Shown: positions 29,901 to 35,740 of the stretch, in pieces
How positions within the stretch are numbered: the stretch's first letter is position 1
Layout: every line of letters begins with the position of its first letter
DNA from: Bacteroidota bacterium
Lineage (GTDB): Bacteria > Bacteroidota > Ignavibacteria > SZUA-365
Assembly (NCBI GenBank): GCA_003246455.1
Contig: QKAF01000079.1
Coordinates: 1 to 64,000, forward strand
Reading direction: 5' to 3'
Length of the DNA stretch: 64,000 nt
Notes under the pieces: model-generated
Databases searched by the model: none
What the model was told of the DNA's origin: nothing
Seen by the model: the letters and a program-made list of their open reading frames with translations, nothing else
Translations under genes and position numbers: made by a program

Positions 29901-30035
29901 GAAGGGCATGGGCTCGGCCTGTCCATCGTCAAGCGCATCATCGAGAAAACCGGGGGAGAAGTGGATGTTATCTCGGAAGAAGGCAGGGGGAGCACCTTCC
30001 GCTTTACAATTCCCGAAGCTTCAGCAGGCAGGTGA
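26985..30035 (+). CDS. pseudo-receiver / five-PAS histidine kinase
   Basis: A 1016-residue soluble kinase. A receiver-like domain (about 5-122) is followed by five PAS domains (about 135-250, 265-390, 395-510, 520-645, 655-775). HisKA has H803 in VAHDLKNPLSLILGY. The HATPase domain has NAIKHG, DDGPGI and GHGLGLSIVK. The receiver keeps the acidic pair (VED, 11-13) and T87, but its phospho-acceptor position is Asn58 (LLNLALSDS, where the related kinase at 44051 has LLDLNLPDS). The conserved Lys is also lost (DYLRIE for DYLIKG). It is therefore probably a non-phosphorylatable protein-interaction module. Start 26985 or 26994 is uncertain, as neither has a clear ribosome site. The 3' end overlaps the convergent DUF309 gene by 32 bp. 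Confidence 0.9.
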   Translation: MDGMSYQVLLVEDRIADAELIQEALRQSAVSCSVTHVRRLADALERTLHTRFDAVLLNLALSDSRGLDTYVAMRSHASALPLILITNADSHTVTLEAMKKGAEDYLRIEEISPSMLGKALLYAIERKRHEHDLRTQKEFYENLLREANVWVEALDRQGNVILWNKGAEKISGYASETMLSGGSRWELLYPDENRRREMVEKYAALLENERGVRDVESEIRTASGETRLISWNSNIIRGNASEVMGCMLVGSDITDQRSASEGILRSEQRFRVLSELTSDYVYSATIDENGGYVTQWVEGAFERITGVHPDEILGRANAWFEYIHPGDLPSDAEFAAALQRTPAVFEYRVRRRDGSYCWLRDSIHPTFDGESGGLVGILGAVTDISEEKQARESERLAKRTLDALINSSQDYAFLLSSDGTLLSVGSAIAEFFGMRSEEMTGKKLFDFIPDDYPEERRHRLHQLCQAREVYEYTTTFRDHYIRVRGTPVFDEHGGLLMVIVFSRDVTDEVRAQETLRREEEKLRGIIENSTDGILLMDAAGSIIEWNPSMERITGIPKAEALRLARWEVDSRLLSSDEAGYAALVARMKEETLAYLASGNTDWLDKIVHRWIQRPDAERRFIEMVSFPVRSSFGMLTGSIMRDITEIKIAEQDVEEQNRRLHALIHAIPDMVYFKDLELRNILANQAYADFAGRSIDELAGLTEEEYLPPDLARQSSESDREVVTRGVTLRREELISDPDSAGGRWYETVKTPLLGAEGKIIGLIGVSRDITERKTAELKLSAQNAELRERNEELDTFTHSVAHDLKNPLSLILGYADMVQFERGAFTAKELHDYMGSILFNGRKMIAIINSLLLLASVREEEVVFEPIEMRQIVGDALRRLQKQITDNDVAITLPNRWFAALGYAPWIEEVWVNYIGNAIKHGGKGRKIAIGAERIPGGLLRYSVTDDGPGIPANRMDELFLPFTRLAQAKIEGHGLGLSIVKRIIEKTGGEVDVISEEGRGSTFRFTIPEASAGR

Positions 30036-30414
30036 AATTCTTGTCGAAGTGCGCGAGCTGATGCTCCGCGAATATGCGCAGTCCCACCGTATCCATCCCG
30101 AGAAACAGTCCCGGCATCACCGCGAATTTTCCGCTCGCCTTGGCGAACTGGCTTCGCGCGCCCTTGTACCTGCCGCTGCGTTTCAGGTGCAGGCCGGAGG
30201 CGAGCTGTATCAGCGCGCGGAAGAAGATTTCCGCATCGTCCGCCGGATCGTCTCCCATCGGAAGCCAGGCGGCCTCCCAGGCTTCATGCGCATGCCAGTA
30301 CTTTCCATGATTGAACAGCGCGACCCCCGTGAGGAAGTGATCGCGCTGTCCGGCATCCAGGGGAGGCTCCTGCAGCGAAGCGATTTCATCTATGGAGCGC
30401 TTGCGCGGAGGCAT
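30004..30414 (-). CDS. DUF309 domain protein
   Basis: A 136-residue protein of the DUF309 family. The defining motif is the helix pair with FNHGKYWHAHEAWEAAW (about 34-50), followed by FFRALIQLASGLHLKRSG. Family structures are helical bundles resembling a one-domain TPR; function is unknown. It is the last gene of a possible minus-strand group, 5 bp after the small membrane protein gene. Its end overlaps the multi-PAS kinase on the other strand. Confidence 0.85.
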   Translation of the reverse strand: MPPRKRSIDEIASLQEPPLDAGQRDHFLTGVALFNHGKYWHAHEAWEAAWLPMGDDPADDAEIFFRALIQLASGLHLKRSGRYKGARSQFAKASGKFAVMPGLFLGMDTVGLRIFAEHQLAHFDKNFTCLLKLREL

Positions 30415-30419
30415 GGCGC

Positions 30420-30809
30420 TTACCTGCCCGGTTCCGCGGGAATGCTGCGCTGACGTCGCGCGTCGATAAAGGACTTGACCGCGAGAATCACGAAGCCGAG
30501 TGTGAGAACGGCCATGATGCTCTGCATGACCGCGGCAAGCGGGCGGGTGACGTCGTGGCCTCCCAGCAGGTCGACAAGAGTGGAGAGGCCGCGAACCGAT
30601 CCGGCGAAGCCGATCAAAGCGAGGGCGGCGATGCCGTGCATCATGTGCTTGCGAAGTTTTTCCTTTCGAGCGAGAAAGCCGAGAATGAGGATCGGGATGC
30701 CGAAAAAGGTCGGGATCAGCGCGGTGATGCTTTCCCCGGCGGAGGCTGCATAGCCGAGCACGCCAAGGAGACTGAGGAGAACACCAAGACCGAGGGAAAG
30801 TGATACCAT
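30420..30809 (-). CDS. small four-helix membrane protein of unknown function
   Basis: A 129-residue hydrophobic protein with four helices (about 3-22, 26-44, 57-76 and 90-112) and a short basic tail (FIDARRQRS). I do not recognise a family. ATG 30809 has CGGAG about 7 nt upstream. It sits 5 bp ahead of the DUF309 gene, so the two are likely co-transcribed, separate from the beta-lactamase operon 126 bp upstream. The cytoplasmic positively charged loop (RKEKLRKHMMHG) orients it with both termini inside or outside ambiguously. Confidence 0.65.
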   Translation of the reverse strand: MVSLSLGLGVLLSLLGVLGYAASAGESITALIPTFFGIPILILGFLARKEKLRKHMMHGIAALALIGFAGSVRGLSTLVDLLGGHDVTRPLAAVMQSIMAVLTLGFVILAVKSFIDARRQRSIPAEPGR

Positions 30810-30935: not shown

Positions 30936-31718
30936 TTACATCAGGCCCTGGTCACGCAGAAGAACACGGAGAAGGGTATGCCGCTTTTTCACGAAACCGT
31001 ACAGATCGTCGGTTTCCGGCATCTGCACGTTCATGACGTATATGTACACATGCCCGCCGCGCTCGAGATATCCGACGAGCCATCCGATGATGTCGTCGCT
31101 GCGCAGCGCCGTTCCGGTTTTTCCCCGCAGCGTGTATTCATCGGTACGTTCGAGCACCATCAGCTCCTTCACCGTCCGCTGAGCCTCTCTCGGGAAGGGG
31201 AGTTCCTCCCTCCAGAGGCGCCGGAGGAAGGTCAATTGCTCTTCCGAAGAAATACGCAGCGCACCGTCGAGCCAGAAGCGGTCGATGCCGCCGTGGATAT
31301 CCATATTGCCGTAGCCCGCTGCCGCGACGGCCTCCTTCATGCGTGTTTCCCCGATACGCCGGGCGAGTTCCTGGTAAAACCACACGCAGGAGCGCTGGAA
31401 CGCGTCACGCATGCACTGATCCTGGTTCCATGATTCGATGGCGTGCTTCGTCCCGTCCCATTTCAAGGTGTCATCGAGTCCGCTGACCGCACCGGTTTCG
31501 AGCGCAATCATCGAATTGAGGATCTTGAAGGTGGAAGCGGGAATGTAGCGCTGGGCGCAGCGGTCGGGATTGATGCGATAGCAGCTGTCGCTTTCGAGTT
31601 CACACAGCAGAAACGACCCGGTAAGTCCGGCTTCCCGGAAGTGGCGTTCGGGATCGCCGCCTCCATGCAGGGGAAGGAGAAGTGCGGTGAGGAAGATGAC
31701 AGGAAGAGTGAAAAGCAT
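30936..31718 (-). CDS. class D beta-lactamase-like serine hydrolase
   Basis: A 260-residue exported protein with all class D signatures. The signal peptide is about 1-18. The serine nucleophile and carbamylated lysine are S62-x-x-K65 in PASTFKILNS. The S-x-V element is S110-C-V112 in RSCVWFY, a DRFWLDGAL loop carries a Trp near 149, and KTGT starts at K200. The length matches OXA enzymes. It may hydrolyse penicillins or carbapenems, or act on peptidoglycan-like substrates; sequence alone does not decide. It starts 6 bp after the dipeptidase stop and is the third gene of an operon with two D-residue enzymes, an unusual context. I see no mobile element, so it looks chromosomal and intrinsic. 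Confidence 0.9.
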   Translation of the reverse strand: MLFTLPVIFLTALLLPLHGGGDPERHFREAGLTGSFLLCELESDSCYRINPDRCAQRYIPASTFKILNSMIALETGAVSGLDDTLKWDGTKHAIESWNQDQCMRDAFQRSCVWFYQELARRIGETRMKEAVAAAGYGNMDIHGGIDRFWLDGALRISSEEQLTFLRRLWREELPFPREAQRTVKELMVLERTDEYTLRGKTGTALRSDDIIGWLVGYLERGGHVYIYVMNVQMPETDDLYGFVKKRHTLLRVLLRDQGLM

Positions 31719-31724
31719 GACGGC

Positions 31725-32771
31725 TCAGGCGCTGGTGGAGAGGACGGTGGAATAGAGGCGGAGGATATTCCCTCCGATGATGCCGATGAGTTCCTCGTCG
31801 GTAAAACCCCGGTCGGCAAGCGCCTGAATGAAAACCGGCAGCGTCCGCACGGTTTCGGCACCCGGGATGAAGGCCATCAGGTCCGCGGGAAGCCGGTCGC
31901 GCTCGAGCCACCGCTCCATGGCGTCCATGTAATAGTCGGCGTAGTCGGGTCCCAGCGCGAGCGCCTGCGGGCCTGCCAGCGAGGCGATGTGCACGGCGTG
32001 GTCGGCGAGGCGATCGGCCGTGGCTTTTCCCCGGTCGGCATCGATGAACATGGCGAGGAAATTCAGACCGATCACGCCATCGCGCCGGCCGACTTCACGA
32101 ATCTGCTCGTCGGTCAGGTTCCGCCTGTGGTCGCAGAGAGCGCGCGCATTACTGTGCGAGACGACCGGGGGGAGCGTGTAATGGTCCACCGCATCCCAGA
32201 ACGACGGATCCGAGAGATGGACGAGGTCGAGCACCATGTGAAGGGACTCCATTTCGCGAACCACGGCGCGGCCGAACTTGCTGAGTCCGCCCGGAAGCGG
32301 TTCGCCGCAGCCGTCCGCAGCCAGGTTGCGCTCGTTGTGCGTCAGTATCACGGATCGCACGTCCGCGGCATACAGCAGGCGCAGGGCCGCGAGATCCTCG
32401 ACACCGCGGATTCCCTCGAGCGCCAGCATGAAATGCGTACCGCTGCGCCGGGCAGCTTCCGCGATGTCCGCCGCGCTCCGCACGAGATGGAACTCTTCAT
32501 GCGCGTCGATCTGGCGTCGCGTCGCGTCGATGATGCCGCGCATGAGACGGTGGTCCCAGAGCTTGAGGGTGTCGATATCGAAATCGCCGGCGACGGTCAG
32601 CACTTCCATGCTCACCATGCCCTCGCGCAGCGCCGGGAGGTGCTCTCGCGCCAGCGCATCGGCGGCACCGTCCTGCTCGCGCCGGTACAGCTCGACGGCG
32701 TAGTCGGAATGCGCGTCGACGACCGGGTGTGCCGACATCAGGGTGCGGATGCGTTCGGAGACCGTATTCAT
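31725..32771 (-). CDS. membrane dipeptidase (peptidase M19 / renal dipeptidase family)
   Basis: A 348-residue zinc dipeptidase. Metal ligands are visible as H21-x-D23 (VDAHSDY), E119 (LALEGI), H184 (DLVHLSD) and H205 (VSHSNARAL). There is no signal peptide, so it is probably cytoplasmic. M19 enzymes cleave dipeptides and tolerate a C-terminal D-residue; the mammalian member also opens carbapenem beta-lactams (family knowledge). ATG 32771 has AGGAGGA about 10 nt upstream and overlaps the stop of the preceding gene as ATGA, which settles the start despite an open frame to 33053. It sits between a D-amino-acid enzyme and a class D beta-lactamase, pointing to D-amino-acid peptide or beta-lactam turnover. 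Confidence 0.93.
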   Translation of the reverse strand: MNTVSERIRTLMSAHPVVDAHSDYAVELYRREQDGAADALAREHLPALREGMVSMEVLTVAGDFDIDTLKLWDHRLMRGIIDATRRQIDAHEEFHLVRSAADIAEAARRSGTHFMLALEGIRGVEDLAALRLLYAADVRSVILTHNERNLAADGCGEPLPGGLSKFGRAVVREMESLHMVLDLVHLSDPSFWDAVDHYTLPPVVSHSNARALCDHRRNLTDEQIREVGRRDGVIGLNFLAMFIDADRGKATADRLADHAVHIASLAGPQALALGPDYADYYMDAMERWLERDRLPADLMAFIPGAETVRTLPVFIQALADRGFTDEELIGIIGGNILRLYSTVLSTSA

Positions 32772-33955
32772 GAAGGGGATTCCTCCTGCCTGGGTGTATG
32801 GTCCGCGGGTGCGGACGGAGTGGACCGGGATGGTGCCGGTGATGCCGCCGGCGCGCCTGCGTAATGATCGGCGACGGTTCCGTCGAGCAGACGGTATCCC
32901 TTCATGCATTCCGCCGTCAGGCAGGAATGCACGGGCAAAATGCCGAGAAGGTCGCCTTCGCTCAGGGCCGAGCGGTCTTCCGCCGCAAGCTGTACGATGC
33001 CGTGTTCCTGCGAAAGCCGGACGACGGATGCACCGGTGAGCGGCCGGGCCCATCCCCCGGCGCTGAGCGGGACGGGCAGCCCGAAGTTCTGCGCGCCGCG
33101 GGCATCGACGAGCTGCTCTCGCGAGAGGTGCACGGCGCCCCCGTACAGCACGAGTTCGCTGCGCTCATCGTGGAACGCGACGACCGGGCAGGCGAGCGCG
33201 ACGGCGATGTCTTCCACGCGGCAGACCCCGCGGCGCAGCTGCATGACATCGAAGAAAACAAAGTTTCCGGGGCGAATCTCATCGATCCCGGAGAAGTCGT
33301 CAGCCAGCGTACAGCCGGGTGTGTCGCCGACCGAAATCTGGATACGCGGGTGATCGTCACGGAGGGAGTCCGCGGCCGCGAGCATCCGTCTGCGCGTACG
33401 CGTGAAGCGCTGGACCACGTCCGCCGCATCCGCCGCCTGGTACGTGTCGCCGCCGTGCGTGAGCAAGCCGCGGAGGCGAAGCCCCGGCGCATCCGCGATC
33501 ACGCGCGCGAGCGCACCCAGCCGGTCTGCGTCGTCGAAAGAGATGCCGCTGCGTCCGTACCCGGTATCGATTTTTATCCACACATCGACCGGCGCGTGGA
33601 GCAGGACGCTGAGCCGTTCGGCTGCCGCCGCGGATTCCACGAGGACTCCGAGGCGTATGCGTGCCGCAAGCGCGTCGATCTCCTCCGCTTCGCGCAGGTT
33701 CACCGGGAAAGCCACGGTGATATCGTCCCAGCCGTCGTCGGCGAAGTACCGCGCCATGCCCACGGAGGAGACGGTGATCGCGGTGACGCCGGCGTCCCGG
33801 AACCACGATCCGATGCGCCGCGACTGATGCGTTTTGAAGTGCGGCCGGAATACGAGCCCGTGCGACGCGGCCTTTTCCTGCATGCGCGTGATATTTCTCC
33901 TGCAGATCGCAGCGTCGAGCAGAAGCGTCGGGGTGCGGACATCCGGCAGCAGCAT
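32768..33955 (-). CDS. PLP/metal D-amino acid lyase (D-serine dehydratase / D-threonine aldolase family)
   Basis: A 395-residue fold-type III PLP enzyme. The alanine-racemase-like N-terminal barrel has Schiff-base lysine K41 in RPHFKTHQS. The C-terminal domain carries the H-x-C metal-binding pair H343/C345 in PVHSCLTAE, diagnostic of the DSD1-type D-serine dehydratase and D-threonine aldolase group. Reaction options are D-serine to pyruvate plus ammonia, or D-threonine cleavage to glycine plus acetaldehyde. The tail (about 365-395) is Pro/Ser-rich and probably disordered. ATG 33955 has GGAG 8 nt upstream. A long upstream extension of the frame (to 35839) is antisense to MscS and Nudix and is ignored. 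It is first in a three-gene operon. Confidence 0.9.
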   Translation of the reverse strand: MLLPDVRTPTLLLDAAICRRNITRMQEKAASHGLVFRPHFKTHQSRRIGSWFRDAGVTAITVSSVGMARYFADDGWDDITVAFPVNLREAEEIDALAARIRLGVLVESAAAAERLSVLLHAPVDVWIKIDTGYGRSGISFDDADRLGALARVIADAPGLRLRGLLTHGGDTYQAADAADVVQRFTRTRRRMLAAADSLRDDHPRIQISVGDTPGCTLADDFSGIDEIRPGNFVFFDVMQLRRGVCRVEDIAVALACPVVAFHDERSELVLYGGAVHLSREQLVDARGAQNFGLPVPLSAGGWARPLTGASVVRLSQEHGIVQLAAEDRSALSEGDLLGILPVHSCLTAECMKGYRLLDGTVADHYAGAPAASPAPSRSTPSAPADHTPRQEESPS

Positions 33956-33982
33956 GTCAGGTGCTCCGTTTTTTTCTATATT
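33954..33982 (+). promoter_or_regulatory. possible promoter for mscS-like gene
   Basis: ATGTCA (33954-33959), a 17-bp spacer and TATATT (33977-33982), 31 nt before the start codon at 34013. It overlaps the start of the divergent lyase gene, so expression of the two could interfere. Confidence 0.3.
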
Positions 33983-34012
33983 GAGTGAAACGCAAACAGG
34001 CAGTGATCGCTC

Positions 34013-35140
34013 ATGAATATTCTCGAGTTCATCCTCGGTGAGACGCGGCTTTCGATACTCCTTTCCACGGTTCTGATCGTCGTGCTGGGATACGCGGGGG
34101 GACGTATTCTCAAACTGGTTCTGCGGCTGTTCAGCGACAAGATAACAAAAAAAACACGTTCGGCTCTCGACGACCTGATCGTGAGCACGCTCGCGCAGTA
34201 CGCCACCGCAATGGTCACGATATTCGTGGCCTACTGGTCTATGAAATGGTCCGCCGGAGCGCTCGACGATACCATTCCGCTTCTCACGAAAGGTCTTCAT
34301 ATCGTCACGGAAGCGCTGTACGTGGTCACGGTGCTCTACGCCAGCTACTTCGTCACCCGACTTATCGATGCCACGGTCCGCTGGTACCTGCACGAGGTCG
34401 CGACGCGAACGCAGACGCATCTCGACGACGAACTGGCGCCGCTGGCGAATCGCGTGCTCAAGATCCTGATCTACCTCGTGGGAGTGGTGATCATCCTTGA
34501 TCATTTTCACCAGAATATCAGCACGCTCGTCGTTTCCCTCGGTGTCGGCTCGCTCGCGATCGCGCTTGCGGCGCAGGAGACGCTGGCCAACATGATCGCG
34601 GGATTCGTGCTGATGATCGACAGGCCGTTTCGCATCGGCGATCGCATACGTCTGCCCGACGGCACCATCGGACTGGTGCGCGAAATCGGGATCCGGTCGA
34701 CGAAGGTCATCGACGACTACCAGGTCATGGTCATCACCCCCAATGCCGAGATCGTCAAAAGCCAGATCAAGAATTTCTCCTACCCGAACGACATCGTGCG
34801 CTTCGAGGTCGCGTTCGGGGTGGCATACGGGACGGATCTGAAGGCGATGCGGCGGATTGTGCTCGAACGCATCAACCGTGACGCGGATATCGTCGAGCCT
34901 GAGACCTCGGAGGTCCGTATCACGGAAATGGCGGATTCCTCCATGAACGCCGTCCTGCTCTGCAAAATCCGTAATCCGAACAACATTCCCCGGAGAAAGA
35001 GCGATCTTCTGCTGACCATATACGACACCCTCTACGAAAACAACATCGAAATCCCGTTTCCCCAGCGTGTCCTCCATCTCGCCCCGGAAACCCGGGAGGC
35101 GTTCGCGGCATCGTCCGACACGAAGGGGAGCGGAGACTAG
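34013..35140 (+). CDS. MscS-family mechanosensitive channel
   Basis: A 375-residue membrane protein. Helices at about 12-36, 58-78 and 98-120 are followed by a fourth near 145-165. The pore helix and beta domain form the MscS domain (about 170-340), with the characteristic GVGSLAIALAAQETLANMIAG and RPFRIGDRIRLPDGTIG. These channels open on membrane tension to release solutes during hypo-osmotic shock, or act as slow leak channels. The C-terminal 30 residues are polar. It is 6 bp ahead of the Nudix gene, so they are likely an operon with the following peroxidase and AbgT genes. Confidence 0.92.
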   Translation: MNILEFILGETRLSILLSTVLIVVLGYAGGRILKLVLRLFSDKITKKTRSALDDLIVSTLAQYATAMVTIFVAYWSMKWSAGALDDTIPLLTKGLHIVTEALYVVTVLYASYFVTRLIDATVRWYLHEVATRTQTHLDDELAPLANRVLKILIYLVGVVIILDHFHQNISTLVVSLGVGSLAIALAAQETLANMIAGFVLMIDRPFRIGDRIRLPDGTIGLVREIGIRSTKVIDDYQVMVITPNAEIVKSQIKNFSYPNDIVRFEVAFGVAYGTDLKAMRRIVLERINRDADIVEPETSEVRITEMADSSMNAVLLCKIRNPNNIPRRKSDLLLTIYDTLYENNIEIPFPQRVLHLAPETREAFAASSDTKGSGD

Positions 35141-35146
35141 CGCGGC

Positions 35147-35740
35147 ATGAAAAATCCCTACGAAATCACGCGGCATGAAATCATCTTCGAAGGACGTGTG
35201 TTTACCATTATTCGAGACGAGGTGCGGCACGAAAGCGGCTACGCCTCGGTGCGCGAAGTGGTCGAACATCACGGCGGCGCGGTCATCGCCGCACTGCACG
35301 ATAACGGCGACGTCCTGCTCATCCGCCAGTTCCGCTATCCCGTGGCGGATGCCATCCTCGAGCTGCCCGCCGGCAAGCTCGGTCCGGGCGAGGATCCCCT
35401 CGACTGCGCACGCCGCGAGCTGCGCGAGGAAACCGGCTGCAGCGCCGATCGCTGGGAAAAACTGACCGCGATGCTCACCACGCCGGGATTCTGCAGCGAG
35501 GTGCTGCACATCTACCTTGCCCGGGGACTGCACAACGGCGTGCAGGCGCTGGAAGAGGGCGAGGAAAGCATCGAGGTGCTTCGCGTGCCCCTGTCCGAAG
35601 CGCTCGCGATGTGCTCCGACGGACGCATTCGCGACGGCAAGACCATCACCGGTCTCGCGCTCACGGCCCTGCGTCTCGAGTCCCTCTCCGCCCGCGGCGG
35701 ACACGAATCCGGCGGCGGACACGAACAGAACGATCATTAA
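35147..35740 (+). CDS. Nudix hydrolase, ADP-ribose pyrophosphatase-like
   Basis: A 197-residue Nudix protein. The complete Nudix box G-x5-E-x7-R-E-L-x-E-E-x-G runs from G76 to G97 (GKLGPGEDPLDCARRELREETG). The upstream VLLIRQFRYPVADAILELPAG is the usual ADP-ribose pyrophosphatase sequence. Such enzymes split ADP-ribose to AMP and ribose-5-phosphate using Mg2+. The product of sirtuin and NAD turnover is a chemically related substrate, but no direct link is shown. The C-terminal 20 residues are Gly/His-rich (GGHESGGGHEQNDH). Its start is 6 bp beyond the channel gene stop. Confidence 0.9.
   Translation: MKNPYEITRHEIIFEGRVFTIIRDEVRHESGYASVREVVEHHGGAVIAALHDNGDVLLIRQFRYPVADAILELPAGKLGPGEDPLDCARRELREETGCSADRWEKLTAMLTTPGFCSEVLHIYLARGLHNGVQALEEGEESIEVLRVPLSEALAMCSDGRIRDGKTITGLALTALRLESLSARGGHESGGGHEQNDH

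Follow-up and report, generated by a model that had tools for sequence, protein, structure and literature searches.

Background

M19 dipeptidases act on D-containing dipeptides, and RidA proteins hydrolyse the enamine and imine products of PLP-dependent β-elimination. To our knowledge, few bacterial M19 dipeptidases and PF14031 lyases have a known physiological substrate. Lyases of the latter type differ in their metal ligands, which are His and Asp in D-threonine aldolase and His and Cys in the dehydratase; in the structure of D-threonine aldolase, the substrate hydroxyl is activated by the metal (PMC4401734). The locus described here encodes a member of each family side by side, followed by a class D (OXA-type) β-lactamase. 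The enzyme families themselves are ordinary, and the recurrent lyase–M19 pairing is apparently undescribed but sensible. No paper on a lyase–M19 or OXA–M19 cluster was found in a literature search of incomplete coverage, which is weak evidence.

Organization of the locus

The window, i.e., the whole 64,000-nucleotide stretch of DNA analyzed, contains the following features:

32768..33955, minus strand: PLP/metal-dependent D-amino-acid lyase (PF01168 + PF14031), 395 aa; assigned from family models, structure matches, and residues
31725..32771, minus strand: M19 dipeptidase, 348 aa; assigned from PF01244, structure matches, and residues
30936..31718, minus strand: class D (OXA-type) β-lactamase, 260 aa; assigned from NF012161, a structure match, and motifs
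33956..34012, no strand: divergent intergenic region between the lyase gene and an MscS-type gene, 57 bp

The lyase, M19, and β-lactamase genes follow one another in this order on the minus strand, from 33955 down to 30936. The original prediction described a tight trio with a 4-nt overlap and a 6-nt gap, and the coordinates agree: the lyase gene ends and the M19 gene begins in a common ATGA (4 nt), and 6 nt lie between the M19 stop and the β-lactamase start. The 57-bp divergent region is the likely site of the lyase operon start signals; a promoter scan found no sigma-70-like match on its minus strand. A promoter and terminator scan revealed no promoter-like sites on the minus strand inside the trio and one promoter-like match ahead of orf129 (30837–30808). 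This pattern is compatible, if weakly, with a three-gene unit, and the β-lactamase gene is probably co-transcribed with the lyase and M19 genes from one promoter. The pN/pS values of 0.16–0.46 point to purifying selection on each of the three genes.

Downstream of the β-lactamase gene, orf129, which belongs to no Pfam family, and the gene of a DUF309 protein form a tight pair (window 30004–30809) with its own promoter-like match. This pair is kept in genera g1 and g3; in the relative G007, it was not found at the site, although the trio is complete there. On the other side of the divergent region, an MscS-type channel and a Nudix hydrolase (window 34013–35740) form a divergent pair that is conserved at the order level.

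Predicted activities of the encoded proteins

Both lyase domains score above their cut-offs (Ala_racemase_N, 75.3 vs. 24.1 bits; D-ser_dehydrat, 50.6 vs. 22 bits). The best PDB match is chicken D-serine dehydratase (3anu, E 6e-46), and a second solved relative is the Delftia D-threo-3-hydroxyaspartate dehydratase (3wqc, E 7e-44). The PLP lysine is K41 and the metal pair is H343-x-C345, as the original prediction had stated, with the refinement that the metal pair is of the dehydratase type. Because this pair is H-x-C, the lyase was assigned to the dehydratases, and D-threonine aldolase was ruled out as a candidate identity, the pair not being H-x-D. A dehydratase-type enzyme would require a β-hydroxyl or similar leaving group, making D-Ala an implausible substrate, and the predicted reaction is the β-elimination of a D-Ser or 3-hydroxyaspartate-type substrate. 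The last step of the pathway first proposed, acting on a muropeptide or D-Ala-D-Ala product, is thus chemically doubtful, as D-Ala has no β-hydroxyl to leave. The Pro/Ala-rich C-terminal tail of the lyase (window 32768–32860, minus strand) is unconserved and differs in length between relatives, so that the ATGA overlap is not kept throughout the relatives (e.g., a 10-nt gap is found in G007).

The M19 domain was detected with 247.8 bits against a cut-off of 26 (PF01244, E 1.9e-73); the best PDB match is Sco3058 (3id7, E 2e-33), and human DPEP1 (1itq) was also matched. The metal ligands H21, D23, E119, H185, and H206 are all present, together with H145, R216, and D276; in other words, the equivalents of DPEP1 H20, D22, E125, H152, H198, H219, R230, and D288 are all kept, which upholds the metal set noted earlier. 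In G007, the M19 protein has Ala at the R230 position. By inspection, no signal peptide or lipobox was seen at the M19 N-terminus, and no signal was seen at the N-terminus of the lyase. The protein is predicted, from its family and active-site residues, to be a dipeptidase accepting C-terminal D-residues. The M19 protein of the window is about 26–38% identical to M19 proteins outside its family, and as a query against plasmids it yielded remote matches only, with less than 37% identity among the matches listed. The genome from which the window comes also encodes a second M19 paralogue (G000:C128:150301-151392), about 30% identical to that of the window.

The third protein lies above the curated NF012161 cut-off (260.5 vs. 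250 bits), and its best PDB match is 6nhs (E 2e-61). The STFK/SxV/KTG motifs named in the original prediction are intact at positions 62, 110 (as SCV), and 200, and YGN is present at 136. The N-terminus is hydrophobic and, by inspection, signal-like. This protein is predicted to be an ordinary chromosomal β-lactamase that is probably exported and acts separately from the lyase and M19.

Conservation within the family

In the window's family (f1), the lyase–M19–OXA order is kept in most genomes in which the site is assembled, and genes with clearly defined ends are separated by −4 to 48 nt. Gene order is collinear over about 34 kb (15060–49018) across the g1 and g3 genomes; adjacency within the family therefore says little and was dropped as evidence of function. 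The collinear block fits an explanation in which the three enzymes have no functional link and are kept together by the slow rearrangement of one family's conserved block, as does the fact that close lyase relatives stand alone. Gene content within the family argues against it. The lyase was found in 10 genomes of f1 and the orthologous M19 in nine of the 10, the tenth being represented by a lyase fragment alone, at the end of a contig; both genes are absent from G004 and G006, and G004 has the MscS–Nudix pair without the trio. Two further families of this order (G012 and G013) likewise have the MscS–Nudix pair with no lyase, M19, or OXA gene beside it.

The β-lactamase gene is set apart from the lyase–M19 pair by two losses. 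It is absent at the site in G001, where orf129 directly follows M19, and in G005 it is truncated (G005:C15:17011-17379, in L163): it has lost its N-terminal half up to approximately residue 139, with STFK and its catalytic serine, and the reading frame continues into unrelated sequence, while the lyase and M19 genes there are intact. The β-lactamase looks like a passenger rather than a third pathway step. No transporter or RidA gene is linked to the trio in the window's family; the window's genome has two RidA copies, both on other contigs.

Lyase–M19 pairing in other genomes

The best 80 lyase relatives in named genomes were examined, including members of Bacteroidota, Chloroflexota, Cloacimonadota, Heimdallarchaeota, and other taxa; 78 of them come from outside the window's family. 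No M19 or class D gene was found near these 78 in the flanking DNA covered, at most 6 kb per side (less on short contigs), and neighbour clustering around stand-alone lyases gave no cluster above 9 of the 80 loci. Since most of its close subfamily relatives occur alone, without an M19 gene in the vicinity, the lyase can do without the dipeptidase.

A sample of 297 genomes of the phylum was then considered, with 117 PF14031 places. An M19 gene is adjacent to or one gene away from a PF14031 lyase gene, on the same strand, at no fewer than 24 places besides that of the window, in 24 other genomes belonging to five other families; these genomes are related and from one phylum, so the 24 are not independent events, and for some genomes the M19 count is that among the matches listed. 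By our estimate, about 0.4 such neighbours would be expected by chance, given 117 places, about 1.9 M19 genes per 4.2-Mb genome, and 3.5 kb on either side. The lyase precedes M19 in most pairs of families f39, f35, f30, and f27; M19 comes first in genus g105 of f37, and also in G086 and G205, where one gene lies between M19 and the lyase.

In the lyase tree, the pairs of the window's family and of g105 fall on different branches of one subfamily, and the other pairs belong to a second subfamily; in the M19 tree, the three paired groups occupy three different places. Two lyase subfamilies and three M19 clades indicate, at the level of these trees, that the pairing arose independently at least three times. 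In the g105 pairs, the M19 protein has a lipoprotein-like signal, and the dipeptidase would thus not reside in the same compartment in every pairing. Many operons of the second-subfamily pairs include RidA and a GntP permease, which would be expected for enamine products and small-acid uptake, respectively; RidA fits a dehydratase route because the enamine and imine products of PLP-dependent β-elimination are its substrates. At two loci (L187 and L188), genes for hydroxyacyl-CoA-dehydrogenase-like proteins, a class III aminotransferase, and a ceramidase-like protein lie between and beside M19 and the lyase, a context that is predicted from its genes to be a larger catabolic operon.

An OXA gene adjacent to a lyase or M19 gene was not found outside the family in the 297 phylum genomes, among the matches listed. 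The expectation of conserved adjacency is thus borne out in part: the three-gene linkage was not seen outside the family, whereas lyase–M19 adjacency is recurrent and appears to have arisen independently. Independent pairings elsewhere, with other M19 clades, run counter to mere retention in a slowly rearranging block, and we regard the absence of any functional link as unlikely, though still deserving some weight.

Proposed route and alternative explanations

From the observed gene layout, residues, recurrent lyase–M19 pairing, and dispensability of OXA, we infer with moderate confidence that the lyase and M19 form a cytosolic two-step pair for scavenging D-terminal dipeptides, with OXA co-transcribed but separate. 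A functional link between the two enzymes is supported by the recurrence of independent pairings in the phylum and by their joint presence and absence in f1. In the predicted order of reactions, the binuclear-metal M19 enzyme would first cleave the (L-Xaa-)D-Xaa peptide bond in the cytosol, as suggested by its homology to Sco3058 and DPEP1 and its intact active-site residues. The PLP/metal lyase would then strip the β-hydroxyl from the released D-Ser, D-Thr, or 3-hydroxyaspartate-type amino acid by β-elimination, yielding a 2-oxo acid and ammonia, as the H-x-C pair and the closest solved structures suggest. The β-lactamase, encoded on the same transcript, would be exported and have its own β-lactamase role. 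With this pair, the uncultivated bacterium can probably hydrolyse small peptides carrying a D-amino acid at their end and degrade the D-amino acid thus freed. A bolder version, in which a repeatedly evolved M19-feeds-D-lyase route serves for eating D-terminal dipeptides and OXA was recruited into the transcript in one Bacteroidota family, e.g., as a shared response to cell-wall or competitor signals, is speculative, and we consider it quite unlikely.

Peptidoglycan turnover would offer a different role for each protein: M19 would act on wall fragments with D-residues, the lyase would remove inhibitory D-amino acids, and OXA would be a penicillin-binding sensor or protectant. The established action of M19 enzymes on D-containing dipeptides agrees with this, as do the signal-like N-terminus of OXA and its membership of a serine-active, penicillin-reactive enzyme type. 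However, the annotated neighbours include no identified gene for peptidoglycan recycling, D-Ala and D-Glu, the common cell-wall D-residues, have no β-hydroxyl, and OXA was lost twice, all of which makes this role very doubtful. The single pathway of the original prediction, in which a β-lactam or muropeptide is opened or bound, the D-dipeptide is cleaved, and the D-amino acid is degraded by the three products in turn, keeps its lyase–M19 link and loses its OXA member: tight packing across most of the family, retention of the trio in G007, and purifying selection on OXA count in its favour, but the lack of OXA neighbours in the 297 phylum genomes (among the matches listed) and near the 78 lyase relatives, the loss and truncation of OXA beside an intact pair, the signal-like N-terminus found on OXA alone of the three, and a β-eliminating lyase not expected to use D-Ala render it highly improbable. 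Missing OXA linkage outside the family and the two losses ruled it out as the main reading.

For the preferred dipeptide-scavenging pair, the independently repeated pairing provides a substrate hypothesis for both enzyme families, with L-Xaa-D-Ser-like dipeptides going in and a 2-oxo acid and ammonia coming out. It also calls for caution: no β-lactam pathway should be read from an adjacent OXA gene when that gene is lost and the genes around it remain.

Comparison with known systems

The β-lactamase resembles class D (OXA) enzymes in its STFK, SxV, YGN, and KTG motifs, its signal-like N-terminus, and its score above the NF012161 cut-off, and differs from them only in its location behind the lyase–M19 pair. 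The lyase shares with chicken D-serine dehydratase (3anu) and the Delftia enzyme (3wqc) an alanine-racemase-type PLP domain combined with a PF14031 domain, the PLP lysine, the H-x-C pair, and the conserved positions Tyr172, Gln316, Glu317, and His318. It is remote from both in sequence, the two references lying on long unresolved branches of the lyase tree, and, unlike them, it is encoded beside an M19 dipeptidase. Compared with Sco3058 and human renal dipeptidase DPEP1, the M19 enzyme has every metal- and substrate-binding residue, whereas it belongs to its own well-supported clade of the M19 tree and has no visible signal peptide or lipobox.

Among the closest systems are also operons in other Bacteroidota that consist of GntP permease, RidA, PF14031 lyase, and M19 genes (e.g., L176, L178–L183, and L189). 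Both enzyme families are present in them, M19 directly follows the lyase, and M19 is apparently cytosolic, as in the window. In contrast to these operons, the window has no linked RidA and GntP genes, its M19 belongs to a different clade, and its lyase is of the SQEHG subfamily, whereas theirs are of the SEEH subfamily.
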